The notes below the pieces were generated by a model, which had not been told where the DNA came from, made no database searches, and saw only the letters and a list, made by a program, of their open reading frames with translations. A stretch of 58,345 nt of DNA, from contig JAUVYV010000022.1 of assembly GCA_030602885.1 (NCBI GenBank), forward strand, positions 1-58,345. Reading direction: 5' to 3'. Shown in pieces: positions 12,233-43,374 of this stretch; within the stretch, counting starts at the first letter, position 1; the number at the start of each line of letters is the position of its first letter. Source of the stretch: Phycisphaerales bacterium (GTDB lineage Bacteria > Planctomycetota > Phycisphaerae > Sedimentisphaerales > Anaerobacaceae). Made by a program: the position numbers and the translations under genes.

Positions 12233-13873
<1,641 letters not shown>

Positions 13874-26974: not shown

Positions 26975-28933
26975 TCAGCGCCTCCTGCTGTCCATCATCA
27001 GTTCCATCATCAGCAGTTGATCCGGAGTCATCCCTCCGACACCAGGCTGCCCCGGAACGATAGGTGTCCGACGACGACCTCGCCGCCTCCCCCTGCCTCC
27101 CCACGCCCGCAACGGCTCCTTGGTCTTCTTGGCAAGAGTCCTTATCTCATTGTACTTCAGACGAAGCTCGTTCGGCCAGTGCACTAACTTCACTGGAACG
27201 CGGTCGATACGTTCCCCGTCGCTGCTGTACAGCATGTCGAAATAACCTCGCGCATGAAGACTCTTGCCCGTCCAGTCATTTACCGGCACCAAATCAACCA
27301 GAATCGCCCCCGTGTAGTAATTGATTTCTTCCGGTATGGTGACGTCCTGTTCTTCCTCTTCGAGCTTGGGCTCCGCAACGCCGCCTATCGTCTCGCCCCG
27401 CTTCACCAAAAACTGTTCACTGTACCAGTACCCGAGCGCATACTTCGATACCTGAACCTCCACCGCTTTCGCCGCCTCCTGAACGTTGACCGGGAAAAAA
27501 TACAGCATCGACGGAATTGTCACCGCTTCGGTCGTATCCGAGAACTCACTCCATAAAATGACCTTGTCCTTGCTGGACAGGTCGCTCTCGGCGAATTTCT
27601 CTGTCCCCGCAACCGGGTTGAACACACCCAGCCGAATCCTGTAGTGATATGTGCTGCCCGGCTGTACCGTGTCGTCGTGACCCCAGAAAACAAGCGGCTC
27701 GCTCATCTTCGTCAAGCTCACCTTGGCGATTAGCGAAACCTCCTCAAGCTGGTTATAAAACTCACTTACGTCAACCGTTGTACGTACCGGCCTCTTGGAC
27801 TTCTCGGCTGCTTGGCTCTCGCCACGTCGCTCCGTTCGTGTCTTTCTTGTCGACGGACGCCTCACAGAGCTGCCCGTCGGGCCCCCTCCATATAACATCT
27901 GCATTAGGGCCTGTTCATTCAATGTTCCTCCTGTCGGCGCAACCGGCCTTGTTGTACGACGCTCTTGCTTCGCTCTATCTCGCTGCTGAGAACGCTCTTC
28001 CTTCTCAGCCGCTTCCGCCGCTGCACGCGCTTCTCGCTTCTCCTGAGCTTCTACATGCCTTCGATTGGACACGTACTCCTTGTGAATCGACGGCGGAAAC
28101 CATTCCTCATCCACAGATGCAATCTGATATGTCGCCGGCTGTAACAGGTCTGCTTGTACCGTCGGGGCATCAAACTTAAGTACCCTTACCGTTATCCCCC
28201 CCGCACCAAGTCGCTCAACATCCTCGATGATTCCAAACATCTCCGAATAAGGATCAACTTGCGACCGCGCAACTCGCTCCCATTCGCTCCATGTCCCGTC
28301 GTCGGCTAATCGCTGTCTCTGAAGATCCACAGCCGCAAACACCGGCCTCGCAAGGCACGGATCTCGCCATTCCTCCTTTACCGCCGAACCGGCAAAACTC
28401 TCCTGAAAACTCTTCGTCAACGCTGATACGTCGAACTTCGCCTCCACCGTCATAAGGTCGATATCATTCGGCGCATACGCCGTTTCATCATCAACATTCT
28501 CTGTGCTGATCTTCTGTACCGGAATGTACGCCGCCGCCCTTATGTGCCCTGCCGCAACGTCCGTTACCTGTGCAAGCTCCGGCATGCGGTATTTGGGCTG
28601 GATACTGTCCCTGAACGTGCCCGGCTGCCACGGACCTGTGTCGGCGTCTATGCCGCTCAGCGAAGAGGCCATAAGAGCCGCAAAGTCATCCACCTTCGGT
28701 TTATACGACTCTCGTTCCTTCGGTTCCTCGTCCAGATGCGCCTGAACCTCCCGCGCCTGCTCGCTTATGTACATGTCAATCTGACCCGGCTTGAATTCCT
28801 TGTTGTCCAGACTGATTACGTTCGGACAGAACAGTATGAGTTTGAAACCTATCAAGCCGCACGCCAATACCGCAAGAGCAAAAAATATCTTCTCAACGTG
28901 CTCTTCTAATATGTTGACACTCTTTTTCTTCAT
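26975..28933 (-). CDS. Single-pass membrane protein of the PilM-PilN operon
   Basis: 652 residues. One N-terminal membrane segment (about 15-36, IFFALAVLACGLIGFKLILF) leaves the bulk outside the cytoplasm. No database family recognised. A disordered Arg/Ala/Glu-rich linker (about 305-380) contains NEQALMQMLYGGGPTG, almost identical to a motif in the PilM-PilN fusion of the same operon; the C-terminus has a related GGMTPDQLLMMELMMDSRRR. The domains after the linker are beta-rich (VFWGHDDTVQPGSTYHYRIRLGVFN). Position third in the operon suggests a PilO/PilP-like role in an inner-membrane pilus or secretion platform; this is inference from context. Confidence 0.7.
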   Translation of the reverse strand: MKKKSVNILEEHVEKIFFALAVLACGLIGFKLILFCPNVISLDNKEFKPGQIDMYISEQAREVQAHLDEEPKERESYKPKVDDFAALMASSLSGIDADTGPWQPGTFRDSIQPKYRMPELAQVTDVAAGHIRAAAYIPVQKISTENVDDETAYAPNDIDLMTVEAKFDVSALTKSFQESFAGSAVKEEWRDPCLARPVFAAVDLQRQRLADDGTWSEWERVARSQVDPYSEMFGIIEDVERLGAGGITVRVLKFDAPTVQADLLQPATYQIASVDEEWFPPSIHKEYVSNRRHVEAQEKREARAAAEAAEKEERSQQRDRAKQERRTTRPVAPTGGTLNEQALMQMLYGGGPTGSSVRRPSTRKTRTERRGESQAAEKSKRPVRTTVDVSEFYNQLEEVSLIAKVSLTKMSEPLVFWGHDDTVQPGSTYHYRIRLGVFNPVAGTEKFAESDLSSKDKVILWSEFSDTTEAVTIPSMLYFFPVNVQEAAKAVEVQVSKYALGYWYSEQFLVKRGETIGGVAEPKLEEEEQDVTIPEEINYYTGAILVDLVPVNDWTGKSLHARGYFDMLYSSDGERIDRVPVKLVHWPNELRLKYNEIRTLAKKTKEPLRAWGGRGRRRGRRRTPIVPGQPGVGGMTPDQLLMMELMMDSRRR

Positions 28934-28977: not shown

Positions 28978-30237
28978 CTACCTGCGCCTCGTATCCTTTT
29001 TCTCCTCGACTACCTCCTTCACCGCTTCCGGCTTGAGTGCGTCATGCCCGCTTCTCTCAAGAATATACTCGCAGATTAAATCCAGCTCAACCACAGAATC
29101 GTCCCCGTATCGATAAAGATCGTGTTCGTCACTCTCCATATCAACGGCACTCGTCGTGCTCTCCAGAACCGTAATCTGATTGTGCTCGTATGTCTCTGCC
29201 GCTTCCGACCCCGAATGGCCCCTGAACACGTGTTTCTTCACGCTGCAAAGCTCCTTCATAAACTCAAGAACTGCCTTTGAATCAACTAAAACGCTCAGCT
29301 CGAAATGTACCACGTCTATTTTGTCGTTCGAGACTCTCCCTGTGAATGAATCGGCCAGACCGTCCCTCGCCTCGCGAACATAAACCGGTTTCCCGCCACC
29401 CGCCCTGCTGCCTGACCCCTTCGTCGTTGTTTTACCACCGGAAAAACTCACCCATAACACACGCTTCACCGGCGATGTGTAAACGCTGCTCGAACCCGAA
29501 TCCATAGCTTTAACCGTCTCGAATACGTCTTCGATAATCCAGTATGCAAGCTGCCAGTACCAGCAGTCTTCCACAGCTTCCTTGCGAGTGTTGTACTTAT
29601 AGCTGCCCCAGAGCTCGTAACCCGGCAAATCCAACGCGTTCACATAAACCGATGCAGATTTCGCTTTCTCGCGGCATAGAACATCCGTGATCGTCGCGTC
29701 ATCGTCCCGAGCTCTCGAAATCAGACGCCTGCCGCCCGTTCGCCTTCGACGCGGTGTACCCTCAGGCCGCATCGCTTGGTCGAGCTCCGCCTCTGTCGGG
29801 CAGTCTCGACCGTTCACGCTCTCTATCAAATCCTCTATCCCAGCTCGATACAACCGACCAAACTCATCGAAAATCAGCATCGATGTGTCTTTGGGTTCAG
29901 GGAATATCTTGTAGCTCAGCAACTCTCGTTGCGTCGTCTGTCTTGCCAAAAGCGTAATCTGATTCGCATCTGCCTCCCACGCCTGCTGGTACTCTTTCTC
30001 AATCTCTACCTGACTCAGCGGAACCGCGCTCTGCGACAACCTCTTCACACTTTGACCCAAAGGTATGCTTTCTTCTTCCACTTTCTTCTTGAAGCTGCTG
30101 CCTAATAGAAGTGTCACCGCCAAAACTACGAACCCTGCAATGAGTATCGCACCAGGCAGCACCAGTGACGAATATGACTTCAAAAAACCGAGTTTCGAAA
30201 AAATACCCTTGAACTGTGTTAACTCAATCTTAGCCAT
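28978..30237 (-). CDS. Single-pass membrane protein, PilO-like by position
   Basis: 419 residues. A cytoplasmic N-terminus of about 22 residues, one membrane segment (about 23-46, SLVLPGAILIAGFVVLAVTLLLG), then a coiled-coil-like start and a periplasmic region interrupted by a basic disordered stretch (PRRRRTGGRRLISRARDDD, about 163-181). A late FELSVLVDSKAVLEFMKELCSV segment is compatible with the ferredoxin-like fold of PilN/PilO, but sequence identity to them is not evident. Shine-Dalgarno AGGAGAA abuts the ATG. It begins 17 bp after the PilM-PilN fusion gene, so co-translation is likely. Confidence 0.68.
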   Translation of the reverse strand: MAKIELTQFKGIFSKLGFLKSYSSLVLPGAILIAGFVVLAVTLLLGSSFKKKVEEESIPLGQSVKRLSQSAVPLSQVEIEKEYQQAWEADANQITLLARQTTQRELLSYKIFPEPKDTSMLIFDEFGRLYRAGIEDLIESVNGRDCPTEAELDQAMRPEGTPRRRRTGGRRLISRARDDDATITDVLCREKAKSASVYVNALDLPGYELWGSYKYNTRKEAVEDCWYWQLAYWIIEDVFETVKAMDSGSSSVYTSPVKRVLWVSFSGGKTTTKGSGSRAGGGKPVYVREARDGLADSFTGRVSNDKIDVVHFELSVLVDSKAVLEFMKELCSVKKHVFRGHSGSEAAETYEHNQITVLESTTSAVDMESDEHDLYRYGDDSVVELDLICEYILERSGHDALKPEAVKEVVEEKKDTRRR

Positions 30238-30254: not shown

Positions 30255-32453
30255 TTACACGTCTTTTGCCTGCTCAGCTCCAGTGTCTCCCTTTTTCCAT
30301 TTGAATTTCGCGTTTAACACGAACCAATAATCATGCACTTCTTCCACCACCTTGCCAAACCTGTCGATTTTCTTCTTTCCGTATTCGTCCAGAACAGTTA
30401 CCTTGCTGATAACCTCTTTCGTCATCGGGTCGATGAGTATCTGCTCTTTATTCTCACCCGGTTGCACACTTCTTTCGCCAATACCCGTTGGTATATTGCC
30501 GCCTATGTCAACTTCACCCGTCTTCAGCTCAAAATGGTCGATTTCCGTCTTCTTGTACAATTCAAACGGCACCTCTTTTCCGATTGCCTCATTCAGATGC
30601 ATAAGCCGAGTTATGATTCCCCAGCTCTCCTGGTCGTTCTCCACCCCTGCAGGGTCCATCAGTGAACCTATGTCCTTGTACGGTGTGTAACCTACTATCG
30701 TGACCACAAATCCCGGCTCCGCCTCCGCCGTCGTACTTGCAGCCCCTGTACGAGAAGAACGCGTTGCACTCGGTGGTATGCTGTACCTTGACCTGCCTGC
30801 ACCACCACCACCGTAAAGCATCATCATTAACGCCTGCTCATCATAGGGCATCCCTCCACTACCTGTTCCGCCGGAGCCATCCAACCTCTCCTGAAAACCC
30901 GACGACCTAAAATCCGCCCTCTCTATGTCCTCCGTGTACCGAACCGACATCTCCGTAACAAATACCTGTTTCCGCTCCCCGCGATCTATCTTCCGTAATG
31001 CCGCCACGTCACCCGCCTTAAACACCCTGTATAGCTCCGACTGCTCCGGATTCGTCTTCTCGTTGGGAAGCACCGAAAACAGCGTCTGATGCAAAGATGC
31101 GATTACGTCACGGTATTTGAACAGGTCAAATTCTTTCTCCATCGAAGCATCGTACCGGGAAGACTGGCTCTTCACTCGATTCAGCTCCTGTTCCGCCTCG
31201 CGCGCCTCGCTTATCAGCATGCCTACTTCGCGCCTCACGCCGCTCTTGCTCGCATAACTCATCCTGTCCACAAATGTCCTCGCAAACGCAAGAACCGAAA
31301 ACAACAAAAACAAAAGAGCTGCCGCCACGAAGTACTTCGATTTCACCGCCCACGCCATCGACCTCTCTATGCTCTTCGGCAGCAGGTTGCTCTCGATCCT
31401 GCCCAAACCCAGCGACTGAATACCAAGACCGTAAACTATACCAAAATCGCACACGCTCTCGTGGAACTTCGCCGCCGATACCGCCGCGCTTATCCTAAGC
31501 TGCTTGAACGAATCAGGCCTCTCTATCGGAATCTGAAGACTCTGCTGAAGATATTGAAGAAGACCGCGCATCTTCGTCCCACCACCCAGAGCAACTATCC
31601 TCACAATCTTCGTCGTCGGATTCGAGTTGTTGTAATACCCTATCGAACGCTGTATCTCCGATGCTAAGTCCGCAAACACCGGCTTCATCGCCTGCAAAAT
31701 CTGCCTCGCATACTTGCTCATCGGCGCAGTTCGCTTCAGCTTCTCCGCCTTCTGAAAATTCAGCTTGAACGTCTCCGAAATCGCACGCGTAAACGCATTG
31801 CCGCCCATCGGTATCGTCCGCTGCCATACGCTCGACTTCGTGCAAACAACCAAATCCGTTATCTCCGCTCCAATGTTCAAAACTACCACCGCCTGCTTGT
31901 CCGAACTCGTCAAATCAGACCTGTCATAAAGCAGATAGTTGTAAAGCGCCATCGGCGCCATCTGAACGTACCCAACCGCAATGTTCTCCCTCGCAAAATG
32001 CTCGAGCTCCCCACTCACCACCTCGTTCTTAATCGCAAATATCCCTACCTTCACCTCCGCGCTGCCCTCCGCCGTCATCATCTGCCAGTCCCACTGCACC
32101 TCGCTTATGTCGAACGGTATCTGCTGGCTCGCCTCGAACTTCACTATCTCCGGAATCCGCTTCTTCTCCACCGGAGGAAGGTTCACAAAACGCGCAAAGC
32201 TGTTCTGGCTCGGTACCGCTACTATCACCTCGTCCCCGCTGATGTCATTCTCCTGAACGAACTGACGCAGACTCAGCGCTATCAGCTCGTCCCTCTCCGC
32301 AGCACTCACCCCGGTACCGGTCAGTATCTTGCCGTGCTGGATATTATCGAACCCAGTCACCTCAAGAGCTCCCGACTCATTGCTCAAACGCAACGCCTTC
32401 AGCGAGCTATTGCCAATATCAATCGCCCATACCGAACCGTATCTCTCCGCCAT
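30255..32453 (-). CDS. Type IV pilus PilM-PilN fusion protein
   Basis: 732 residues. Residues 1-345 are a PilM-type actin-like ATPase: VWAIDIGNSSLKALRL (phosphate 1), VVVLNIGAEITDLVVC (phosphate 2) and RIVALGGGTKMRGL (adenosine motif). Then IESNLLPKSIERS (about 353-364) matches the conserved NLLP N-terminal segment of PilN, normally the peptide bound by PilM, followed at once by a membrane helix (about 373-394) and a coiled coil. The periplasmic part contains a Gly-rich linker with YDEQALMMMLYGGGGAG (about 537-553). So PilM and PilN, separate in classical pili, are one polypeptide here. It heads a three-gene operon; GGAGGT precedes the ATG. No other pilus genes are in the window. Confidence 0.85.
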   Translation of the reverse strand: MAERYGSVWAIDIGNSSLKALRLSNESGALEVTGFDNIQHGKILTGTGVSAAERDELIALSLRQFVQENDISGDEVIVAVPSQNSFARFVNLPPVEKKRIPEIVKFEASQQIPFDISEVQWDWQMMTAEGSAEVKVGIFAIKNEVVSGELEHFARENIAVGYVQMAPMALYNYLLYDRSDLTSSDKQAVVVLNIGAEITDLVVCTKSSVWQRTIPMGGNAFTRAISETFKLNFQKAEKLKRTAPMSKYARQILQAMKPVFADLASEIQRSIGYYNNSNPTTKIVRIVALGGGTKMRGLLQYLQQSLQIPIERPDSFKQLRISAAVSAAKFHESVCDFGIVYGLGIQSLGLGRIESNLLPKSIERSMAWAVKSKYFVAAALLFLLFSVLAFARTFVDRMSYASKSGVRREVGMLISEAREAEQELNRVKSQSSRYDASMEKEFDLFKYRDVIASLHQTLFSVLPNEKTNPEQSELYRVFKAGDVAALRKIDRGERKQVFVTEMSVRYTEDIERADFRSSGFQERLDGSGGTGSGGMPYDEQALMMMLYGGGGAGRSRYSIPPSATRSSRTGAASTTAEAEPGFVVTIVGYTPYKDIGSLMDPAGVENDQESWGIITRLMHLNEAIGKEVPFELYKKTEIDHFELKTGEVDIGGNIPTGIGERSVQPGENKEQILIDPMTKEVISKVTVLDEYGKKKIDRFGKVVEEVHDYWFVLNAKFKWKKGDTGAEQAKDV

Positions 32454-32522: not shown

Positions 32523-32531
32523 ATTATACCA
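32523..32531 (-). promoter_or_regulatory. Extended -10 promoter candidate for the PilM-PilN operon
   Basis: On the - strand TGGTATAAT, an extended -10 (TGnTATAAT) with a perfect TATAAT, 70 bp upstream of the start codon. No -35 hexamer is recognisable, as often with extended -10 promoters. It overlaps the 5' end of the divergent mtaB region. Confidence 0.4.
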
Positions 32532-32535
32532 TACC

Positions 32536-33942
32536 ATGCGAACTTTTTCTATAAATACTCTCGGCTGTAAAGTCAATCAGTACGAAAGCCGGCAGATTCG
32601 ACAATTCCTCGAATCACTCGGCCTCGCCGCCATCCGCCCATCCGATAAACCCGACCTCGCCGTCATCAACACCTGCTGCGTTACCCACACCGCCTCAGCC
32701 AAGTCTCGTTCCTGTATCCAAAGAGCACAAAAGCTTGCCCCTGATGCCGTTACGGTCATCTGTGGCTGTCTGTCCGCACTCGAAACCCCCGAGCTAAGCT
32801 GCCACAAAAGCAAGAATCTCCACATCGTAAAAGACCGCCGCACTCTTGCCGAAACGCTGCACAAGCTCATTGACTCCTCGCGGCAGGACCCCAAAATGTG
32901 CCCTGAACACCTTATTAGACCACAAAATCCGCGAAAAATCAAGGATAATAACCCCGCTTTCGCCAATTACACCCGCCTACGGCGGGCAAGCCCCGAATTA
33001 CCGCAATTAACCGCATTTAAGGGCCATACGCGCGCTTTCCTAAAAGTCCAGGATGGCTGTGACGCCGTTTGCTCCTACTGTATTATACCAAAAACCCGCC
33101 CCCATGTTCACAGTAAGCCCGCAGACCACGTATTGTCGGAAGCCGGCTCGCTCGTCGAGGCAGGCCATAAGGAAATCGTCCTGACCGGCGTCAATCTGGG
33201 GGCCTATGGGCAACAAAGTGTTCGACGGCGCAATTGGCAGGACGGCATCAATCCGCGCTTAGCCGAATTGCTCGATGAGCTGGTTCAGGTGCCGGGGTTG
33301 GCCCGCATCCGCCTAAGCTCACTCGAACCCGCCGATGTGACCGAAGGACTCCTCGATATATTCGCGAAGCGAGACAACATCATGCCACACCTCCACCTCT
33401 CCGTCCAGTCCGCCTCAGACCGCATCCTGCGCCGAATGTGCAGGGATTACTCCCCCAGCGACCTCCGAGAAAAAATTACCATGATAAAAGCACGACTCGA
33501 CCGACCCGCAATCACCGCCGACATCATCGTCGGCTTCCCGGGCGAAACAGATGAAGATTTCGCCGAAACCGTTGCTCTCGCCAAATACGCTGGCTTCTCA
33601 AAGATGCATGTCTTCCCATTCTCGCCACGCACCGCAACACCCGCCGCTAAAATGAAAGAACGCGTCCCGATACCGGTTGTCAAACAACGCAGCGAGACCT
33701 TGCGAAATCTCAGTAACGAATTAGCCGACCAATTCCGAGACCAGTTTATAGGCCATACCGCACAAGTCCTAATCGAATCCAATAACGGCCGCGTTTCCGG
33801 CAGATGCGAAAGATACTTTCGGGTCTTCCTTAATAACTCGGCAAAGCCGGCGCAAAACGAAATCGTGCAGGTCAAACTGATTCAAAATACAAATGACGGC
33901 GCAGTCGCTTCTCTGTGCCGGGAAAGCGAGGTGACAAAATGA
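32536..33942 (+). CDS. mtaB: tRNA t6A37 methylthiotransferase MtaB
   Basis: 468 residues. The N-terminal UPF0004 domain has its three cluster cysteines in NTLGCKVNQYE, INTCCVT and VICGCL. The radical SAM CX3CX2C is GCDAVCSYCIIP (C175, C179, C182). HLHLSVQSASDRILRRM and ADIIVGFPGETDEDF are family-typical, and a TRAM-like C-terminus (IGHTAQVLIESNNGRVSGRCERY) ends the protein. It adds the methylthio group to N6-threonylcarbamoyladenosine at position 37 of ANN-decoding tRNAs, using two [4Fe-4S] clusters and S-adenosylmethionine. CKVNQYES distinguishes it from MiaB and RimO. The stop overlaps the next gene (ATGA). Confidence 0.94.
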   Translation: MRTFSINTLGCKVNQYESRQIRQFLESLGLAAIRPSDKPDLAVINTCCVTHTASAKSRSCIQRAQKLAPDAVTVICGCLSALETPELSCHKSKNLHIVKDRRTLAETLHKLIDSSRQDPKMCPEHLIRPQNPRKIKDNNPAFANYTRLRRASPELPQLTAFKGHTRAFLKVQDGCDAVCSYCIIPKTRPHVHSKPADHVLSEAGSLVEAGHKEIVLTGVNLGAYGQQSVRRRNWQDGINPRLAELLDELVQVPGLARIRLSSLEPADVTEGLLDIFAKRDNIMPHLHLSVQSASDRILRRMCRDYSPSDLREKITMIKARLDRPAITADIIVGFPGETDEDFAETVALAKYAGFSKMHVFPFSPRTATPAAKMKERVPIPVVKQRSETLRNLSNELADQFRDQFIGHTAQVLIESNNGRVSGRCERYFRVFLNNSAKPAQNEIVQVKLIQNTNDGAVASLCRESEVTK

Positions 33943-36756: not shown

Positions 36757-36886
36757 AATACTGGATAGGTATCACGTTTAGAAGCGTGGATCGTGCCTTA
36801 TCTTCATTCCGCGGTGTCTCTGCTGCATCGTGGAGGAGAGGTGTTAGCTGCCGTGGCAGACGGCCAATATAACTGGAGGTGTGGTA

Positions 36887-39800
36887 ATGTCATTTTCGCG
36901 AGGAGAAGATGAACTCAGAGCTTGTCCCAAAACAGGCAAAATCATCAAGCCAAAAAGCAAGTACCGCTGGCTAAAGTGGCTGTTTCCGGTAACGGGGCTG
37001 GCAGCACTTGCGTGGTTTTTGATACGAGTGATACCGAAGCCATCTCGTGCGACGTATCCTTGTCAGCGGGTTGCGTTTCCGTTGGCATCGGGCTTTATTA
37101 TCTGGCTGACGGGAGCGATGGGGTCGGTCGCGGCATTTCGCAGTGCAAAGGCGGCATTTGCCAAAGCAAAGTATCCGGTTGCGATAATTTGCATAGTCGC
37201 CAGTATAGGATTTTTGTGGCTTTCGATGAGCCTCACGTCGCAACAGCAAACCCAGGCCGTGATTCGTGCTGCGCAAACAGCTAATGATCCCATTGGCGAG
37301 GCCCAGGGTGTTAATCCGGGAAGAGTCGCGTGGATACACAACCCTGAGGCGACCGACTGGGTGTACACCAGCCAAACCCAGAGCGAACACTGGTACGAGA
37401 GCGAACACACAGACCAGGCCGTAGTGGACCAAATGATGTCTCAGGCTCTTCGAACGCTCACCGGTGAAAGCTCCGATCAGGCGGCATGGGACAGCATTTT
37501 CAGATGGTTCAATCAAAAACACGGCAAGGGCAATATTGGTTATCAGCCTGGCGAGAAGATCGGTATCAAGAGCAATAATACTCTGAGCACCGGCTCCGAA
37601 CCGGCGATTATGGACAAGAATCCCTGGTGGGGTGAGAACTACATGAATTACATCGACAATTCGCCTCAGTTGACAATCGCGTTGCTCAAGCAGTTAACGG
37701 ACGTTGCGGGTGTAGCACCCGGTGACATATCGATAGGCGATCCGGGCAGGATAATGCCCAACTACTGGTACGATATGGTCGAGCCGAATTGTCCCGGCGT
37801 TGTTTATATTGCAGCAATCGGCGGGATGGGCAGGACCCAGAGTGATTGGTCGGATGTGGAACTCCACTGGAGCGACCCGTGCTCGGCGAGAACTTCGGGG
37901 GTTTCGGCTATAGACTACATACCGCTATGCTTCGCAGAAGCGGATTACTTTATCAATTTTCCTGTAATGAAAAGTCATGACAAAGGCGGCATAACCGTAT
38001 GTGGCAAGAATTTCTATGGTTCGCTTATACGCAATCCTCCTGGCAGCATCGGCTATGAACGGTCATACCCCGGGCTGTGGACCGAGAACGACTATTACGA
38101 CATGCACAGTACACTGTCTGATGCGCTGCCATCCATGGGGAATTACCGCTGTCTTGTTGACCTTATGACGCATCCGGATATGGGAGGCAAGACGCTTCTT
38201 TATCTCGCCGATGCGTTGTTTGCAGCAGAGGGCTGGGACGGTGTTCCGAGCGAGTGGAGTATGCCGCCCTTTGGCGACGGAGCGACAGTGACAGACTGGC
38301 CTTCGAGCATCTTTTTGTCCCAGGATGGTGTTGCTATTGATTCGGTGTGTTTCGATTTCCTGTTAGAGGAGTGGCCTAAAGACCCCGGAGCTAACATGGA
38401 AGGTTCGGACGACTATCTTCACGAGATGGCGTTGATACCGAGCCCGCCATCGGGAACGACTTATGATCCGAACGATGACGGTGGACTGACCGAGAGCTTC
38501 GGCGTTCACGAACACTGGAACAATGCCGCCGATATGCAATATACGAGAAATCTCGGCACCGGTGACGGTATCGAACTTGCATCCGAGCCCGGTGTGATGG
38601 GCGATTTCGATAAGAATGAGATCATTGACTTCCGCGACTTCGCAGTCCTGGCAGCGGCATACGGCAGCACGCCCGGCTATCCCGAGTGGAACGCAGACTG
38701 CGATATGTCAATGCCAAGTGACAACGTGATTGATGATGCGGACGTAGCAGTTTTCTGCGAGAACTGGCTTGAAGAGTTGTCCTATATACTTATAGAACCA
38801 GGTGCGACGCTACAGCAGGTCTATTACGCATCCGGCAAATACTTCGAAGGGCCTGTCTGGGACCCGATTTCCGGCAAGCTCTACTTTACCAACAGGACCG
38901 ACAACCAGACAATGAGACTCGATGCTCCGGGTTCAGCGAGCGTATGGGCGACCAGCCTGCCATATACCAACGGCATGTACCTTTCGCTTGAAGGCAGGAT
39001 GCTCAGAGCCGATGAGAACCCAATGCAGATATCGAGCCATCAGATAGGTGCGAGCGGCCCGGAAGATTCCCAGATACTTGCCGACAGCAGCGACGGTATC
39101 AGCACCAAGCCCAACGACCTGGTTCAGCTTGCCAACGGCAATATCTACTTTACGGGTCCGGACTGGGGAGCGGGGCCGAGTGCGCAGGGTATTTACCTGT
39201 TGAAGACCGACGGGACGGTGACAATGGTCAAGAACGGTCTCTATCAGCCCAACGGCTGTATAGCCGGCAACGACGGTTCAAAGCTGTATGTGGCCGAGAG
39301 CGCAAGCAGCTACAACAGCCTCAAGCGCTGGTGGGTCTTCAATATCCAGGGCGACGGTACGCTTGATGCGGGTTCGATATTCTATAAGCCTTCAAGTCCG
39401 GCGAGCTACAACGACCCCGACGGTATAACGATCGACGCCATCGGCAATCTCTACTGCACCGGCTTTGGAGGGCTATGGATATTTTCGCGTGAGGCCGAGC
39501 TGCTCACGATGATTCCGATACCAGAAGCGGCCAGTAATGTTACGTTCGGCGGAACATACAACAAGACCCTCTTCATTACTTGCCAGGACAAGGTTTACAG
39601 CCTGGCAATGGCAGTTGCAGGCGGCGGGCACGGCGGAACACAGTTGCCGAGCCAGCCGACAATACCGGCAACGGCGGCAGAGATTACCGTCGATGGTGCA
39701 ATTGAATTAGCATGGAACAGCGCGCCCTCCTACGACATGGACAACATCCTGCTCGGCACAGTCAGTGATGACGCGGACCTTTCGGGGACATGGAAGGCGC

Positions 39801-41131
39801 TGTGGGACTGGGAGAATCTCTATTTTCTCGTAGAGATAACCGACGACGTTCAGTACAACGATTCGCCGATCAGCACTCCATGGGAAGATGATGTTGTCGA
39901 ACTCTACATCGATGCCGACCACAGTCAGGGTGCTTCATACGATGGAACCAATGACTACGAACTGGTCTTCCGCTGGAACGATTCGGGCGTGATACACTTA
40001 GGCGTTTATTCGGCGACCAATACGACGGGTATGGACTTTGTAATTGTTGATACGGCGACGGGGTATCGCTTTGAGGCGGCCCTGCCATGGTCCGCTATGG
40101 GTGTGACTCCTGTAGGCGGCAACTATATCGGCCTCGACGTCCACACATGTGACGACGACGATGGCGGCAACAGAGAAGCCAAGAAGGCATGGTGGGCGGA
40201 GACGGACGATTCATGGCAGTGGCCCAATATCTTTGCCAGCGTGCTTTTGACCGGCTCAAGCACAGCGCCGGTACCGCCTGGCCAGGCAAGCAATCCTTCG
40301 CCGATTAATGGCGCAACAACAGTCAGCGTCAGCACAAGTTTGAGCTGGACTGCCGGCTCGAGTGCGACAAGTCACGATGTCTATTTTGGGACGGATTCGA
40401 CACCTGATTCAGGTGAGTTCCAAGACAACCAGACAGAGACAACGTTCGATCCGAACACGCTGGACTACGACACAACTTATTATTGGCGAATCGATGAGAA
40501 GAATGCAGCGGACACAACAACCGGCATCGTCTGGAACTTCACAACCACTTCGGAACCCGGCCCATTGCCAAGCCCATGGATAAGCTATGACATCGGCGAC
40601 CCCGGCGCGGCCGGCTCCGCTTCGTATGCCAGCGGTACCTTTACCGTCAGCGGTTCCGGCGCCGACATCGCAGGCATAGACGATGCGGGCCAGTTCGTGT
40701 ATCAGCCCGCCAGTGGCAACTGCACGATAACCGCCCGGGTAGTCAGCTTGACAGATGTTGTAGCCAACTGGGCCAAGGCGGGTATTATGATCCGCGAGTC
40801 CCTGGACCCCAATTCCACTTTTGCGTTTGGCAACTACACGACGAACATCCCACGCTCAGTCAACAGTTGGACCCTGCTGCATCGCGACACCACAGGCGGC
40901 GGCGCCACACAAACGGTATGGGGCGACGTTCCTCCGCCATATTGGCTCAGAGTCGTTCGTTCGGGCGACAACTTCAGCGGGTATGTATCGTCGGATGGCT
41001 CATCGTGGACGTTGATTACCATGGTACCCATCCCGATGACGAGCAATGTTTATGTGGGCATGGCTGTTACCAGCCACCAGGCAGGGTCGCTCTCTACGGC
41101 TACATTCGACAATGTCAGTGTGACGCCGTGA
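36887..41131 (+). CDS. DUF362 multidomain membrane protein (dockerin-like, SMP-30, CBM9, FN3)
   Basis: 1414 residues from ATG 36887, 6 nt after GGAGGT. Start: CPKTGK motif, then three membrane segments (about 28-115). Residues about 140-560 are a DUF362 domain (SIGDPGRIMPNYWYD, YFINFPVMKSHDKGGITVCGKN, DGVAIDSVCFDFL). A dockerin-like pair follows (about 570-630), then an SMP-30/gluconolactonase-like beta-propeller (about 635-910, FEGPVWDPISGKLYFTN, PNGCIAG), a CBM9-like domain (about 918-1120), an FN3-like module (about 1130-1222) and a C-terminal beta-sandwich with ANWAKAGIMIRE. Probably faces the outside and handles carbohydrate. The DUF362 role is unknown. The second paralogue (41476) shares only the part up to the dockerin-like region. 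Confidence 0.85.
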   Translation: MSFSRGEDELRACPKTGKIIKPKSKYRWLKWLFPVTGLAALAWFLIRVIPKPSRATYPCQRVAFPLASGFIIWLTGAMGSVAAFRSAKAAFAKAKYPVAIICIVASIGFLWLSMSLTSQQQTQAVIRAAQTANDPIGEAQGVNPGRVAWIHNPEATDWVYTSQTQSEHWYESEHTDQAVVDQMMSQALRTLTGESSDQAAWDSIFRWFNQKHGKGNIGYQPGEKIGIKSNNTLSTGSEPAIMDKNPWWGENYMNYIDNSPQLTIALLKQLTDVAGVAPGDISIGDPGRIMPNYWYDMVEPNCPGVVYIAAIGGMGRTQSDWSDVELHWSDPCSARTSGVSAIDYIPLCFAEADYFINFPVMKSHDKGGITVCGKNFYGSLIRNPPGSIGYERSYPGLWTENDYYDMHSTLSDALPSMGNYRCLVDLMTHPDMGGKTLLYLADALFAAEGWDGVPSEWSMPPFGDGATVTDWPSSIFLSQDGVAIDSVCFDFLLEEWPKDPGANMEGSDDYLHEMALIPSPPSGTTYDPNDDGGLTESFGVHEHWNNAADMQYTRNLGTGDGIELASEPGVMGDFDKNEIIDFRDFAVLAAAYGSTPGYPEWNADCDMSMPSDNVIDDADVAVFCENWLEELSYILIEPGATLQQVYYASGKYFEGPVWDPISGKLYFTNRTDNQTMRLDAPGSASVWATSLPYTNGMYLSLEGRMLRADENPMQISSHQIGASGPEDSQILADSSDGISTKPNDLVQLANGNIYFTGPDWGAGPSAQGIYLLKTDGTVTMVKNGLYQPNGCIAGNDGSKLYVAESASSYNSLKRWWVFNIQGDGTLDAGSIFYKPSSPASYNDPDGITIDAIGNLYCTGFGGLWIFSREAELLTMIPIPEAASNVTFGGTYNKTLFITCQDKVYSLAMAVAGGGHGGTQLPSQPTIPATAAEITVDGAIELAWNSAPSYDMDNILLGTVSDDADLSGTWKALWDWENLYFLVEITDDVQYNDSPISTPWEDDVVELYIDADHSQGASYDGTNDYELVFRWNDSGVIHLGVYSATNTTGMDFVIVDTATGYRFEAALPWSAMGVTPVGGNYIGLDVHTCDDDDGGNREAKKAWWAETDDSWQWPNIFASVLLTGSSTAPVPPGQASNPSPINGATTVSVSTSLSWTAGSSATSHDVYFGTDSTPDSGEFQDNQTETTFDPNTLDYDTTYYWRIDEKNAADTTTGIVWNFTTTSEPGPLPSPWISYDIGDPGAAGSASYASGTFTVSGSGADIAGIDDAGQFVYQPASGNCTITARVVSLTDVVANWAKAGIMIRESLDPNSTFAFGNYTTNIPRSVNSWTLLHRDTTGGGATQTVWGDVPPPYWLRVVRSGDNFSGYVSSDGSSWTLITMVPIPMTSNVYVGMAVTSHQAGSLSTATFDNVSVTP

Positions 41132-41341: not shown

Positions 41342-41475
41342 GATAGTAAAGTACCATACCCACCCACAGGTGGGTTGTTGTTAAAATGTAGCTCCGCCCG
41401 CGGTGATTGTGCTGCGTTGCGGAGCAGGTTCTATTGTTGTCGAGGCAGAAGGGTTAAAGCAGTGGAGGTATGGTG

Positions 41476-43374
41476 ATGTCATTTTTGAGAAAAGTTGGTG
41501 CACAGAGAGTCTGTCCGAAGACGGGCAAGGTAATTGAACCAAAACGCAGGTACAGAGCCGTCAGATGGCTTTTGCCGATAACGGGATTAGGCGCCCTCGT
41601 GTGGTTTTTAATCAGGGTGATACCGAAGCCATCTCGTGCGATGTATCCGTGTCAGCGTGTTGCGTTTCCGTTGGCATCGAGTTTTGTCATCTGGGTGATG
41701 GGAGCGCTGGGCTCAATTGCAGCATTTCGCAAGGCGAAGGTGTGTTTTGCTCGGGCGCGTTATGCCGTGGGTATCCTGTGCATTATCGTCAGCGTCGCCT
41801 TTATCTGGGCGGCGATGAGCGGGGCAATCCAGAAGTACGCGATGGCGGGGGCGGGCGATTGCGACCCTCGAGTACCACAGCCGGCTAACGAACCGATGGG
41901 AGTTGTGAAAGGTATCCATCCGGGGCGAGTGGCGTGGATTCATGATCCGAATGCCACCGACTGGGAGTACGTTCCACGGGGTGGGGAGACATCGTGGGAG
42001 AACGACCATACAGATCAGGCAACGGTCGATGAGATGATGTCGAAAGCGATTCGCGTGTTGACAGGCGAGAAGGCAGATGCGACTGCGTGGGACGCGGTCT
42101 TCAGGAATTTCAACCAAACGCACGACAAAGGGGATGTGGGCTACACGGCAGGAGAGAAGATTTCCATCAAGGTGAACTTCACGCTGATGTATAACGCAGA
42201 CCCCTGCGTTATGGAAAAGAAGTACGATCAGTGGTGGCAGGACAAGAACTGGATAGACAACTCACCTCAGATGGCCATAGCGCTTCTGTATCAGCTTGTG
42301 AACGTAGTGGGGGTCAGCGAGAGTGACATCAGCATAGGTGACCCGGGCAGAATAATGCCCAACTACTGGTATGACATCGTACACGTGGAGTTTCCGGATG
42401 TCGTGTATCTGACGAGGGACGGCTATACGGGTTGCGGTCGAACGATAGTCGAGTGGGACGATGAGACGCCGTTTTACTGGAGTGACCCGTGCAGCAGCCA
42501 TTTTGACCTCGTCACAGAGACCGATTATTTACCCACTCACTTTGCGGACGCAGACTACATGATCAACTTTGCCATTCTGAAAACGCACAGCCACTCAGGC
42601 ATTACACTGTGCGGCAAGAACGATTATGGCTCACTGATCAGAAATCCGGATGCGCATGAGATGCCTACTCCCTCGGATTGGTACAACATGCACCTATCGC
42701 GGATTCTGCCGGAAGAATCACCTGGGATGGGTCACTACCGCGCGATAGTCGATTTAATGGGTCATCCGAATCTGGGAGGCAAGACGCTGCTTTATCTGCT
42801 CGACGGTCTTTTTGCAGGGGAATGGTGGAACGCCGTGCCTGTAGAGTGGGAAATGGCACCGTTCAATGGTGACTGGCCTTCAAGCATTTTCCTGTCACAG
42901 GACGGAGTTGCGATTGACTCGGTTGGGTTCGACTTTCTGTATGCGGAATGGCCTAAGAATGGCGAAGGTGATGAAACGGCCGGCGCCGATACGGCCGGCG
43001 CGGATGACTATCTGCATGAGGTGGCATTGGCGAATGACCCCTGCTCGGGGACATTCTACGACCCGAACGGCGACGGTGTTAGACTGGCAAGTCTTGGAGT
43101 TCACGAGCACTGGAACAATTCGACGGATAAGCAGTACTCTCGTAACCTGGATCCGGTAAACGGAACCGGTATAGAACTCGCGACCGAAGTACCTCTCAGC
43201 GGTGATTTTAACGGTGACGGAGTTGATTTCGCTGACTTCGCCACGTTCGCTGCCGCCTGGGGCAGCCGGCCGAGCGATGGCAACTGGAATGCCGACTGTG
43301 ACATCTCGATGCCCAGCGACAACGTCATCGACGAATATGACCTGATTGTCTTCTGTGAAAACTGGCTCAAGTGA
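41476..43374 (+). CDS. DUF362 membrane protein with dockerin-like C-terminus (paralogue)
   Basis: 632 residues from ATG 41476, 6 nt after GGAGGT, matching the start of its upstream paralogue. N-terminal CPKTGKVIEPK, three membrane segments (about 30-120) with conserved IRVIPKPSRAMYPCQRVAFPLAS, and a DUF362 domain with SIGDPGRIMPNYWYD, YMINFAILKTHSHSGITLCGKN and DGVAIDSVGFDFLYAEWP. It ends in a dockerin-like pair (GDFNGDGVDFADFATFAAAWG ... VIDEYDLIVFCENWLK). Lacks the SMP-30/CBM9/FN3 extension of the first copy. The pair arose by tandem duplication including the leader. Followed by a strong terminator. No CxxC-type [4Fe-4S] motif is evident, so DUF362 iron-sulfur chemistry is not supported here. 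Confidence 0.85.
   Translation: MSFLRKVGAQRVCPKTGKVIEPKRRYRAVRWLLPITGLGALVWFLIRVIPKPSRAMYPCQRVAFPLASSFVIWVMGALGSIAAFRKAKVCFARARYAVGILCIIVSVAFIWAAMSGAIQKYAMAGAGDCDPRVPQPANEPMGVVKGIHPGRVAWIHDPNATDWEYVPRGGETSWENDHTDQATVDEMMSKAIRVLTGEKADATAWDAVFRNFNQTHDKGDVGYTAGEKISIKVNFTLMYNADPCVMEKKYDQWWQDKNWIDNSPQMAIALLYQLVNVVGVSESDISIGDPGRIMPNYWYDIVHVEFPDVVYLTRDGYTGCGRTIVEWDDETPFYWSDPCSSHFDLVTETDYLPTHFADADYMINFAILKTHSHSGITLCGKNDYGSLIRNPDAHEMPTPSDWYNMHLSRILPEESPGMGHYRAIVDLMGHPNLGGKTLLYLLDGLFAGEWWNAVPVEWEMAPFNGDWPSSIFLSQDGVAIDSVGFDFLYAEWPKNGEGDETAGADTAGADDYLHEVALANDPCSGTFYDPNGDGVRLASLGVHEHWNNSTDKQYSRNLDPVNGTGIELATEVPLSGDFNGDGVDFADFATFAAAWGSRPSDGNWNADCDISMPSDNVIDEYDLIVFCENWLK

Follow-up and report, generated by a model that had tools for sequence, protein, structure and literature searches.

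In classical type IVa pili (PilMNOP; 2YCH), PilM is a complete actin-like domain with its nucleotide-site residues, PilN carries an NLLP leader just ahead of its membrane helix, and the two are separate polypeptides encoded by two genes. An artificial crystallisation construct, 5EOU, joins P. aeruginosa PilM to PilN(1-12) without the remainder of PilN. In type II secretion systems (T2SS), GspL is a single chain in which a membrane helix connects an actin-like domain in the cytoplasm to a PilN-like domain in the periplasm, and it has been treated as an orthologue of the PilM-PilN complex (PMC4471445). A further related protein is Amuc_1101 (MUL2B; family NF045709) of Akkermansia muciniphila, which has been termed “a PilM protein” (PMC13174399). 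Amuc_1101-1100-1099-1098 correspond to MUL2 and its secretin (PMC5332112, PMC13174399), and the MUL2 pilus has been linked to glycan attachment (PMC13174399). No description of Amuc_1101 as a fusion was found in the literature searched.

The window analysed here is a stretch of 58,345 nucleotides from the genome of a Phycisphaerales bacterium (Planctomycetota), in which a fused PilM-PilN gene occupies positions 30255..32453 and is encoded on the minus strand, with its ATG at 32453 and its stop codon at 30255. A sequence-only reading of the window had placed the gene at exactly these coordinates, but the strand had to be corrected: the plus strand at 30255-32453 is full of stops. The features of the gene that follow all lie on the minus strand. 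The actin-like PilM domain covers residues 11-347 (31413..32423; Pfam PilM_2, PF11104, 128.8 bits at a cut-off of 27, profile positions 2-339/340) and is complete with its nucleotide-site residues, as in a classical type IVa PilM; D12, G14, G195, D200 and G290-G292 are invariant in relatives. The protein also exceeds the cut-off of TIGR01175 (pilM) with 152.1 bits. A linker (residues 348-355, 31389..31412), delimited by alignment with the engineered fusion 5EOU, leads to the NLLP docking motif (residues 356-359, 31377..31388), which is invariant in 11 Phycisphaerae-type sequences. The junction reads ...DFGIVYGLGIQSLGLGRIESNLLPKSIERSMAWAVKSKYFVAAALLFLLFSVLAFARTF..., and the S-NLLP (355-359) lies 8 residues past PilM and about 15 ahead of the membrane helix, just as the leader of a classical PilN precedes its helix. 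The helix itself (about residues 374-391, 31281..31334) is the hydrophobic stretch YFVAAALLFLLFSVLAFA, and fused relatives have a hydrophobic stretch at the equivalent place. It is followed by a periplasmic coiled-coil-like segment (about residues 395-465, 31059..31271), which appears as helices in an AlphaFold2 (AF2) model and aligns with PilN past its membrane helix, and by a PilN-like periplasmic region (about residues 466-720, 30294..31058), delimited by AF2 secondary structure and matched by profiles in its first part only. PilM and PilN are thus not separate polypeptides here, as they are in classical pili, but parts of one 732-aa frame. The gene is confirmed as a genuine PilM-PilN fusion that has kept the PilN docking peptide at its junction, the order of PilM domain, NLLP and membrane helix being that proposed from the letters alone, and the fixed stoichiometry also proposed there is 1:1 by construction.

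Separate Phycisphaerae/Planctomycetota assemblies contain ten other homologues of full length that have the same uninterrupted frame, are 55-62% identical to the window protein and share with it an invariant S-N-L-L-P. A frameshift or an assembly error joining two genes, named beforehand as a finding that would overturn the fusion, is excluded because these independently assembled homologues, and complete genomes as well, keep the frame; nothing was found in favour of such an error, and its chance is negligible. One further homologue, L016, has its frame broken by an assembly gap of two unknown residues, which falls within the membrane helix and away from the junction. The fusion, which the sequence-only reading had proposed to survey in Phycisphaerae, extends from these homologues to the whole phylum. 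A PilM_2 search of 149 Planctomycetota genomes found PilM in at least 148, typically several per genome (the counts from this search being lower bounds), and among the matches listed, the open frames form one group of 340-400 aa and another of about 590-900 aa. When 20 of the long-frame loci were fetched, 18 proved to be true fusions and two (L051 and L052, with ORFs of 452 and 462 aa) ordinary PilMs, so that the length of the open frame alone overcounts fusions. A second set of genomes contributed nine more fused frames, and in all 27 frames opened (18 + 9), PilM is separated by about 10 residues from x-L-[LMIVA]-P, which in turn precedes the membrane helix by about 15. The fusion is widespread in Planctomycetota and no local oddity of one genome. 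As an observation apart, three genomes of family f48 (G049, G088 and G122; L109-L111) have PilM frames of fused length (583-599 aa) that PilM_2 covers only by two separate matches (in G049 and G088, 1-144 and 253-338), which suggests loss of a PilM subdomain.

Of the 70 PilM domains placed on a tree, the 38 from fusions and the 32 ordinary ones fall on the two sides of one branch (support 99/97), which has a length of 2.2 changes per column. That one long branch separates them makes a single origin likely. Judged by family profiles, the fused PilMs belong with the Akkermansia Amuc_1101 lineage and are closer to it than to standard PilM: fused domains score higher on NF045709 than on TIGR01175 (196 vs 154, 234 vs 185 and 213 vs 166 bits), and ordinary PilMs score higher on TIGR01175 in nine of nine cases. 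Residues 9-456 of the window protein align with positions 8-459 of the NF045709 profile (223.8 bits), which points to homology past PilM, through the junction, the membrane helix and the coil; the equivalog cut-off of that family (650 bits) is reached neither by the window protein nor by its relatives in the phylum (257-282 bits). Searched alone, the post-PilM regions of relatives match positions 344-473 of NF045709 (E 7e-12 to 5e-4), which argues that the Amuc_1101 family has the same fused layout; the post-junction part of the window protein by itself gave no match to NF045709. Both proteins combine PilM, junction, membrane helix and coil in one chain, although Amuc_1101 is shorter (about 608 aa, compared to about 730 aa). 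The Amuc_1101 lineage thus appears to be a PilM-PilN fusion, with a docking peptide that is strictly conserved in Planctomycetota, and the simplest reading is one fusion event before the Planctomycetota/Verrucomicrobiota split, or an early transfer.

The grouping with Amuc_1101 also bears on the proposal that the window protein is a type II secretion protein, GspL, under another name. GspL has exactly the same layout (PMC4471445), the GspL of E. coli K-12 has at most a weak motif (DMLHGIF) at the equivalent place, 15-odd residues before its membrane helix, and the window genome itself encodes a GspL behind a GspK-like gene (L004, contig C59; 506 aa, junction GINFLEAD). The latter is one of two further single-chain PilM-PilN proteins of this genome, both GspL-like; the other (L003: 583-2136, minus strand, contig C9) has 518 aa, the junction VNLLPPE, and matches above cut-off to Pfam PilM_2 (truncated, 1-207) and Pfam PilN. 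The gene next after it looks GspM/PilO-like by eye. A further T2SS-like cluster was noticed on contig C111 (L090), where genes for a 1089-aa secretin (gspD profile), a T2SSE ATPase and a possible GspL of 492 aa occur together with GspF-like and pseudopilin-like genes. The window protein, however, not only groups with Amuc_1101 but has a full-length PilM domain and an intact NLLP, profile scans recognised no gsp genes beside it, and its scores are far below the cut-offs for GspL: the whole protein has no match to TIGR01709 (gspL) at E 1, its PilM domain scores 11.5 bits on that profile (cut-off 65), and T2SSL reaches 15.5 bits (cut-off 25.5). Identity with GspL is largely refuted by these scores, and we regard it as improbable. 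Single-chain PilM-PilN is nevertheless already known from GspL and Amuc_1101, so the fusion is no new invention, and since the PilM-PilN complex has been equated with GspL before (PMC4471445), it joins a known kind of protein.

The kinship of the post-junction region with PilN is likely from profile comparisons. The post-PilM regions of 29 fusions, compared with 24 canonical PilNs of the same phylum, gave a probability of 97.5% (E 6e-12, 160 columns); without NLLP and membrane helix, the match fell to 41% (E 3e-4) and was carried by the coil and the first strand. Against the PilN profile, operon gene 2, which also has a membrane helix, gave 53.5%, and operon gene 3 gave 0.6%. Pfam PilN does not match the window protein, and the split PilN of the same genome (contig C65) is below its cut-off as well (13.5 vs 22.8 bits). 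This profile was dropped as a detector: in the window genome it finds only the fusion on C9 and misses the split PilN of C65. The sequence-only reading would have given up the fusion if a PilN-like ferredoxin fold were absent after the membrane helix. A mid-confidence AF2 model contains strands (498-507, 581-590, 641-647 and 709-719) and helices of the right kind, with pLDDT mostly 54-80 in this block outside an insertion, and a complete ferredoxin fold is a likely prediction. The insertion, a low-complexity Gly/Met-rich stretch between the first two strands (residues 517-577, 30723..30905), is gapped and poorly conserved in relatives and has a pLDDT <50.

The geometry of the junction can be compared directly with the engineered fusion. 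The window protein reads GLGIQSLGLGRIES-NLLP where 5EOU reads GLALRSFDSSGMARI-NLLP; in both, PilM is joined directly to ...NLLP at nearly equal spacing, and the natural linker is one residue shorter. The C-terminus of ordinary PilMs of Planctomycetota reads GLASRLRK, and the next gene, often only a few bases away, encodes PilN (start MIxINLLPPE). As PilM tail and PilN leader together make up about ten residues, the length of the fusion linker, nothing has been inserted and PilM runs straight into PilN. In an alignment of 38 fusions across the phylum, the P of the motif is present in 38/38 (the row of L054 is misaligned at the motif, but its junction, NKINLLPPEM, does carry the P), the two preceding positions hold L or similar residues, and the positions between PilM tail and NLLP and those past the motif vary. 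One might suppose that a docking peptide is formally redundant once fused, and that NLLP is a vestige, a mere residue pattern of the linker. Vestiges should decay, and here the P and the L/M/I/V-like positions before it persist among variable neighbours over a great divergence, with 2.2 changes per column on the fusion stem, which counts against a vestige and leaves it with a very small probability. A docking peptide in use could occupy the groove of its own PilM or that of a neighbouring subunit; the tether by itself shows no docking, and the permanent contact proposed from the letters alone is one possibility. Two AF2 models, one of the full length with 11 sequences (pLDDT 49) and one of residues 1-384 with 12 sequences (pLDDT 52), are below 50 in the groove region of PilM (about 80-178) and at the junction, and do not place NLLP. 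With these models, Foldseek and VIA-align recovered PilM and the actin family, as expected, and VIA-align aligned the second model, at its pLDDT of only 52, with 5EOU over residues 4-364, past NLLP. Docking in trans, in which the tether would be a leash that lets the peptide enter the groove of a neighbouring PilM and cross-link platforms into a ring or filament, is a sub-question of the reading preferred below. Actin-like relatives of PilM and FtsA form arrays. The motif is strongly conserved without a sign of cis geometry, both models being unreliable around groove and junction; against this, the linker matches the engineered PilM:PilN(1-12) construct in length, so that a local contact is at least allowed, and we consider docking in trans a possibility, though not the better bet.

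The fused gene is the head of a three-gene operon whose order is conserved in relatives. Gene 2 (28978..30237, minus strand, 419 aa), conserved beside the fusion, has an N-terminal membrane helix and a periplasmic region and takes the place of PilO/Amuc_1100; gene 3 (26975..28933, minus strand, 652 aa), the conserved third gene, has an N-terminal membrane helix and a large periplasmic region and takes the place of Amuc_1099. A candidate extended -10 promoter (TAGAAA-17-TATAAT with TG before the -10; 32523..32551, minus strand) matches the consensus just upstream of the ATG, and is weak by itself. In one relative (L054), the order is fusion, gene 2, gene 3, secretin, and in several others a TPR-secretin follows gene 2. 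The two such secretins that were scanned match the Amuc_1098 family best, so that the order parallels Amuc_1101-1100-1099-1098. The locus differs from that of Amuc_1101 in that the secretin, linked there, is unlinked in the window genome, and in that gene 2 has no measurable similarity to Amuc_1100; two distant positional equivalents of gene 2 touch the Amuc_1100 family, weakly (E 0.02-0.1 only). Profile scans gave no family match for gene 2 and no meaningful one for gene 3, neither is recognisable as PilO or PilP, and profile searches of both against solved structures found no credible relative. The altered inner-membrane platform that had been deduced from the fusion holds only loosely, because the operon partners are unrecognisable as PilO/PilP by sequence. 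Several observations were made on the side. A linear motif, EQALM[MQ]MLYGGG, is common to the fused protein (30786-30851) and gene 3 (27863-27928), within low-complexity insertions, and is not obvious in relatives; the DNA of the two copies is identical at only 28/45 positions, so that the similarity is held at the protein level or old. The third operon gene of the distant relative (L054:2954-4009) has a weak fibronectin type III match in its periplasmic part (E 3e-4, below cut-off), which hints at Ig-like modules in gene 3 products. The window also contains, on the plus strand, a gene for a MiaB/MtaB-type tRNA methylthiotransferase-like protein (by eye; 32536-33942), which is divergent from the fusion and adjoins it in most Phycisphaerae loci, a TCP-1/cpn60 family chaperonin (12245-13870, 542 aa; Pfam Cpn60_TCP1, 260 bits) and two adjoining large DUF362 proteins (36881-41128 and 41470-43371), the first of which also has SMP-30/gluconolactonase, CBM9 and DUF1349 domains.

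Other pilus parts are spread over the genome. The search for pilB, pilC and pilQ elsewhere, suggested with the original reading, found all three on contig C65, in a complete classical cluster of PilB, PilC, pilins, PilM, PilN (MYTIDLLKGQ), PilO-like protein and PilQ, in which PilM and PilN are separate. PilB and PilC are also encoded on contig C127, in a PilB-PilT-PilB-PilC-pilin cluster without PilM. The secretin of this genome that is nearest to the fusion-linked secretins of relatives is encoded on contig C96 (119 bits, compared to 66 for the next). In four genomes of 99-100% completeness, the fused frame is the only full-length PilM match, and their T2SSE matches are ordered in the PilB-PilT-PilB pattern.

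The window protein is probably an inner-membrane platform subunit of a dispersed, type IV pilus-like machine that is Amuc_1101-like and of a type found in Planctomycetota and Verrucomicrobiota, its PilM and PilN having been joined in a single ancient event; we hold this reading with fair confidence. The cytoplasmic, actin-like PilM half should couple to the assembly ATPase under the membrane, and the NLLP behind it would dock in the groove of a PilM, either in the same chain or in the next subunit, as 2YCH and 5EOU suggest. The chain would then cross the membrane, and its PilN-like periplasmic part may pair with the product of gene 2, which stands in the place of PilO. The gene 3 product and the unlinked secretin of C96 would complete the path to the outer membrane, and the cluster on C127, which lacks a PilM of its own, would be the motor. 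The C96 secretin and the C127 motor, unlinked in this genome, are candidates chosen for their similarity and for synteny in relatives. By analogy with the Akkermansia MUL2 pilus, the machine probably serves to attach the cell to surfaces or to capture glycans.

The fusion is the natural counterpart of the artificial crystallisation construct and bears on whether PilM and PilN must come apart at some stage of the pilus cycle. In genomes with no full-length PilM besides the fused one, complete dissociation cannot belong to the cycle, unless the chain is cut. Tentatively, and with less confidence than we place in the platform assignment, Planctomycetota and Verrucomicrobiota may share an ancient, separate class of type IV pili with a covalent PilM-PilN platform; as several nearly complete genomes have the fused frame as their only full-length PilM together with PilT-like ATPases, extension and retraction could run there without PilM leaving PilN, and models based on release would not be general. 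The comparison also suggests that Amuc_1101, a component of the mucin pilus of Akkermansia, represents PilM and PilN together rather than a PilM by itself, which would account for the absence of a separate PilN in that locus. The kinship links the medically watched Akkermansia pilus with a widespread planctomycete system.
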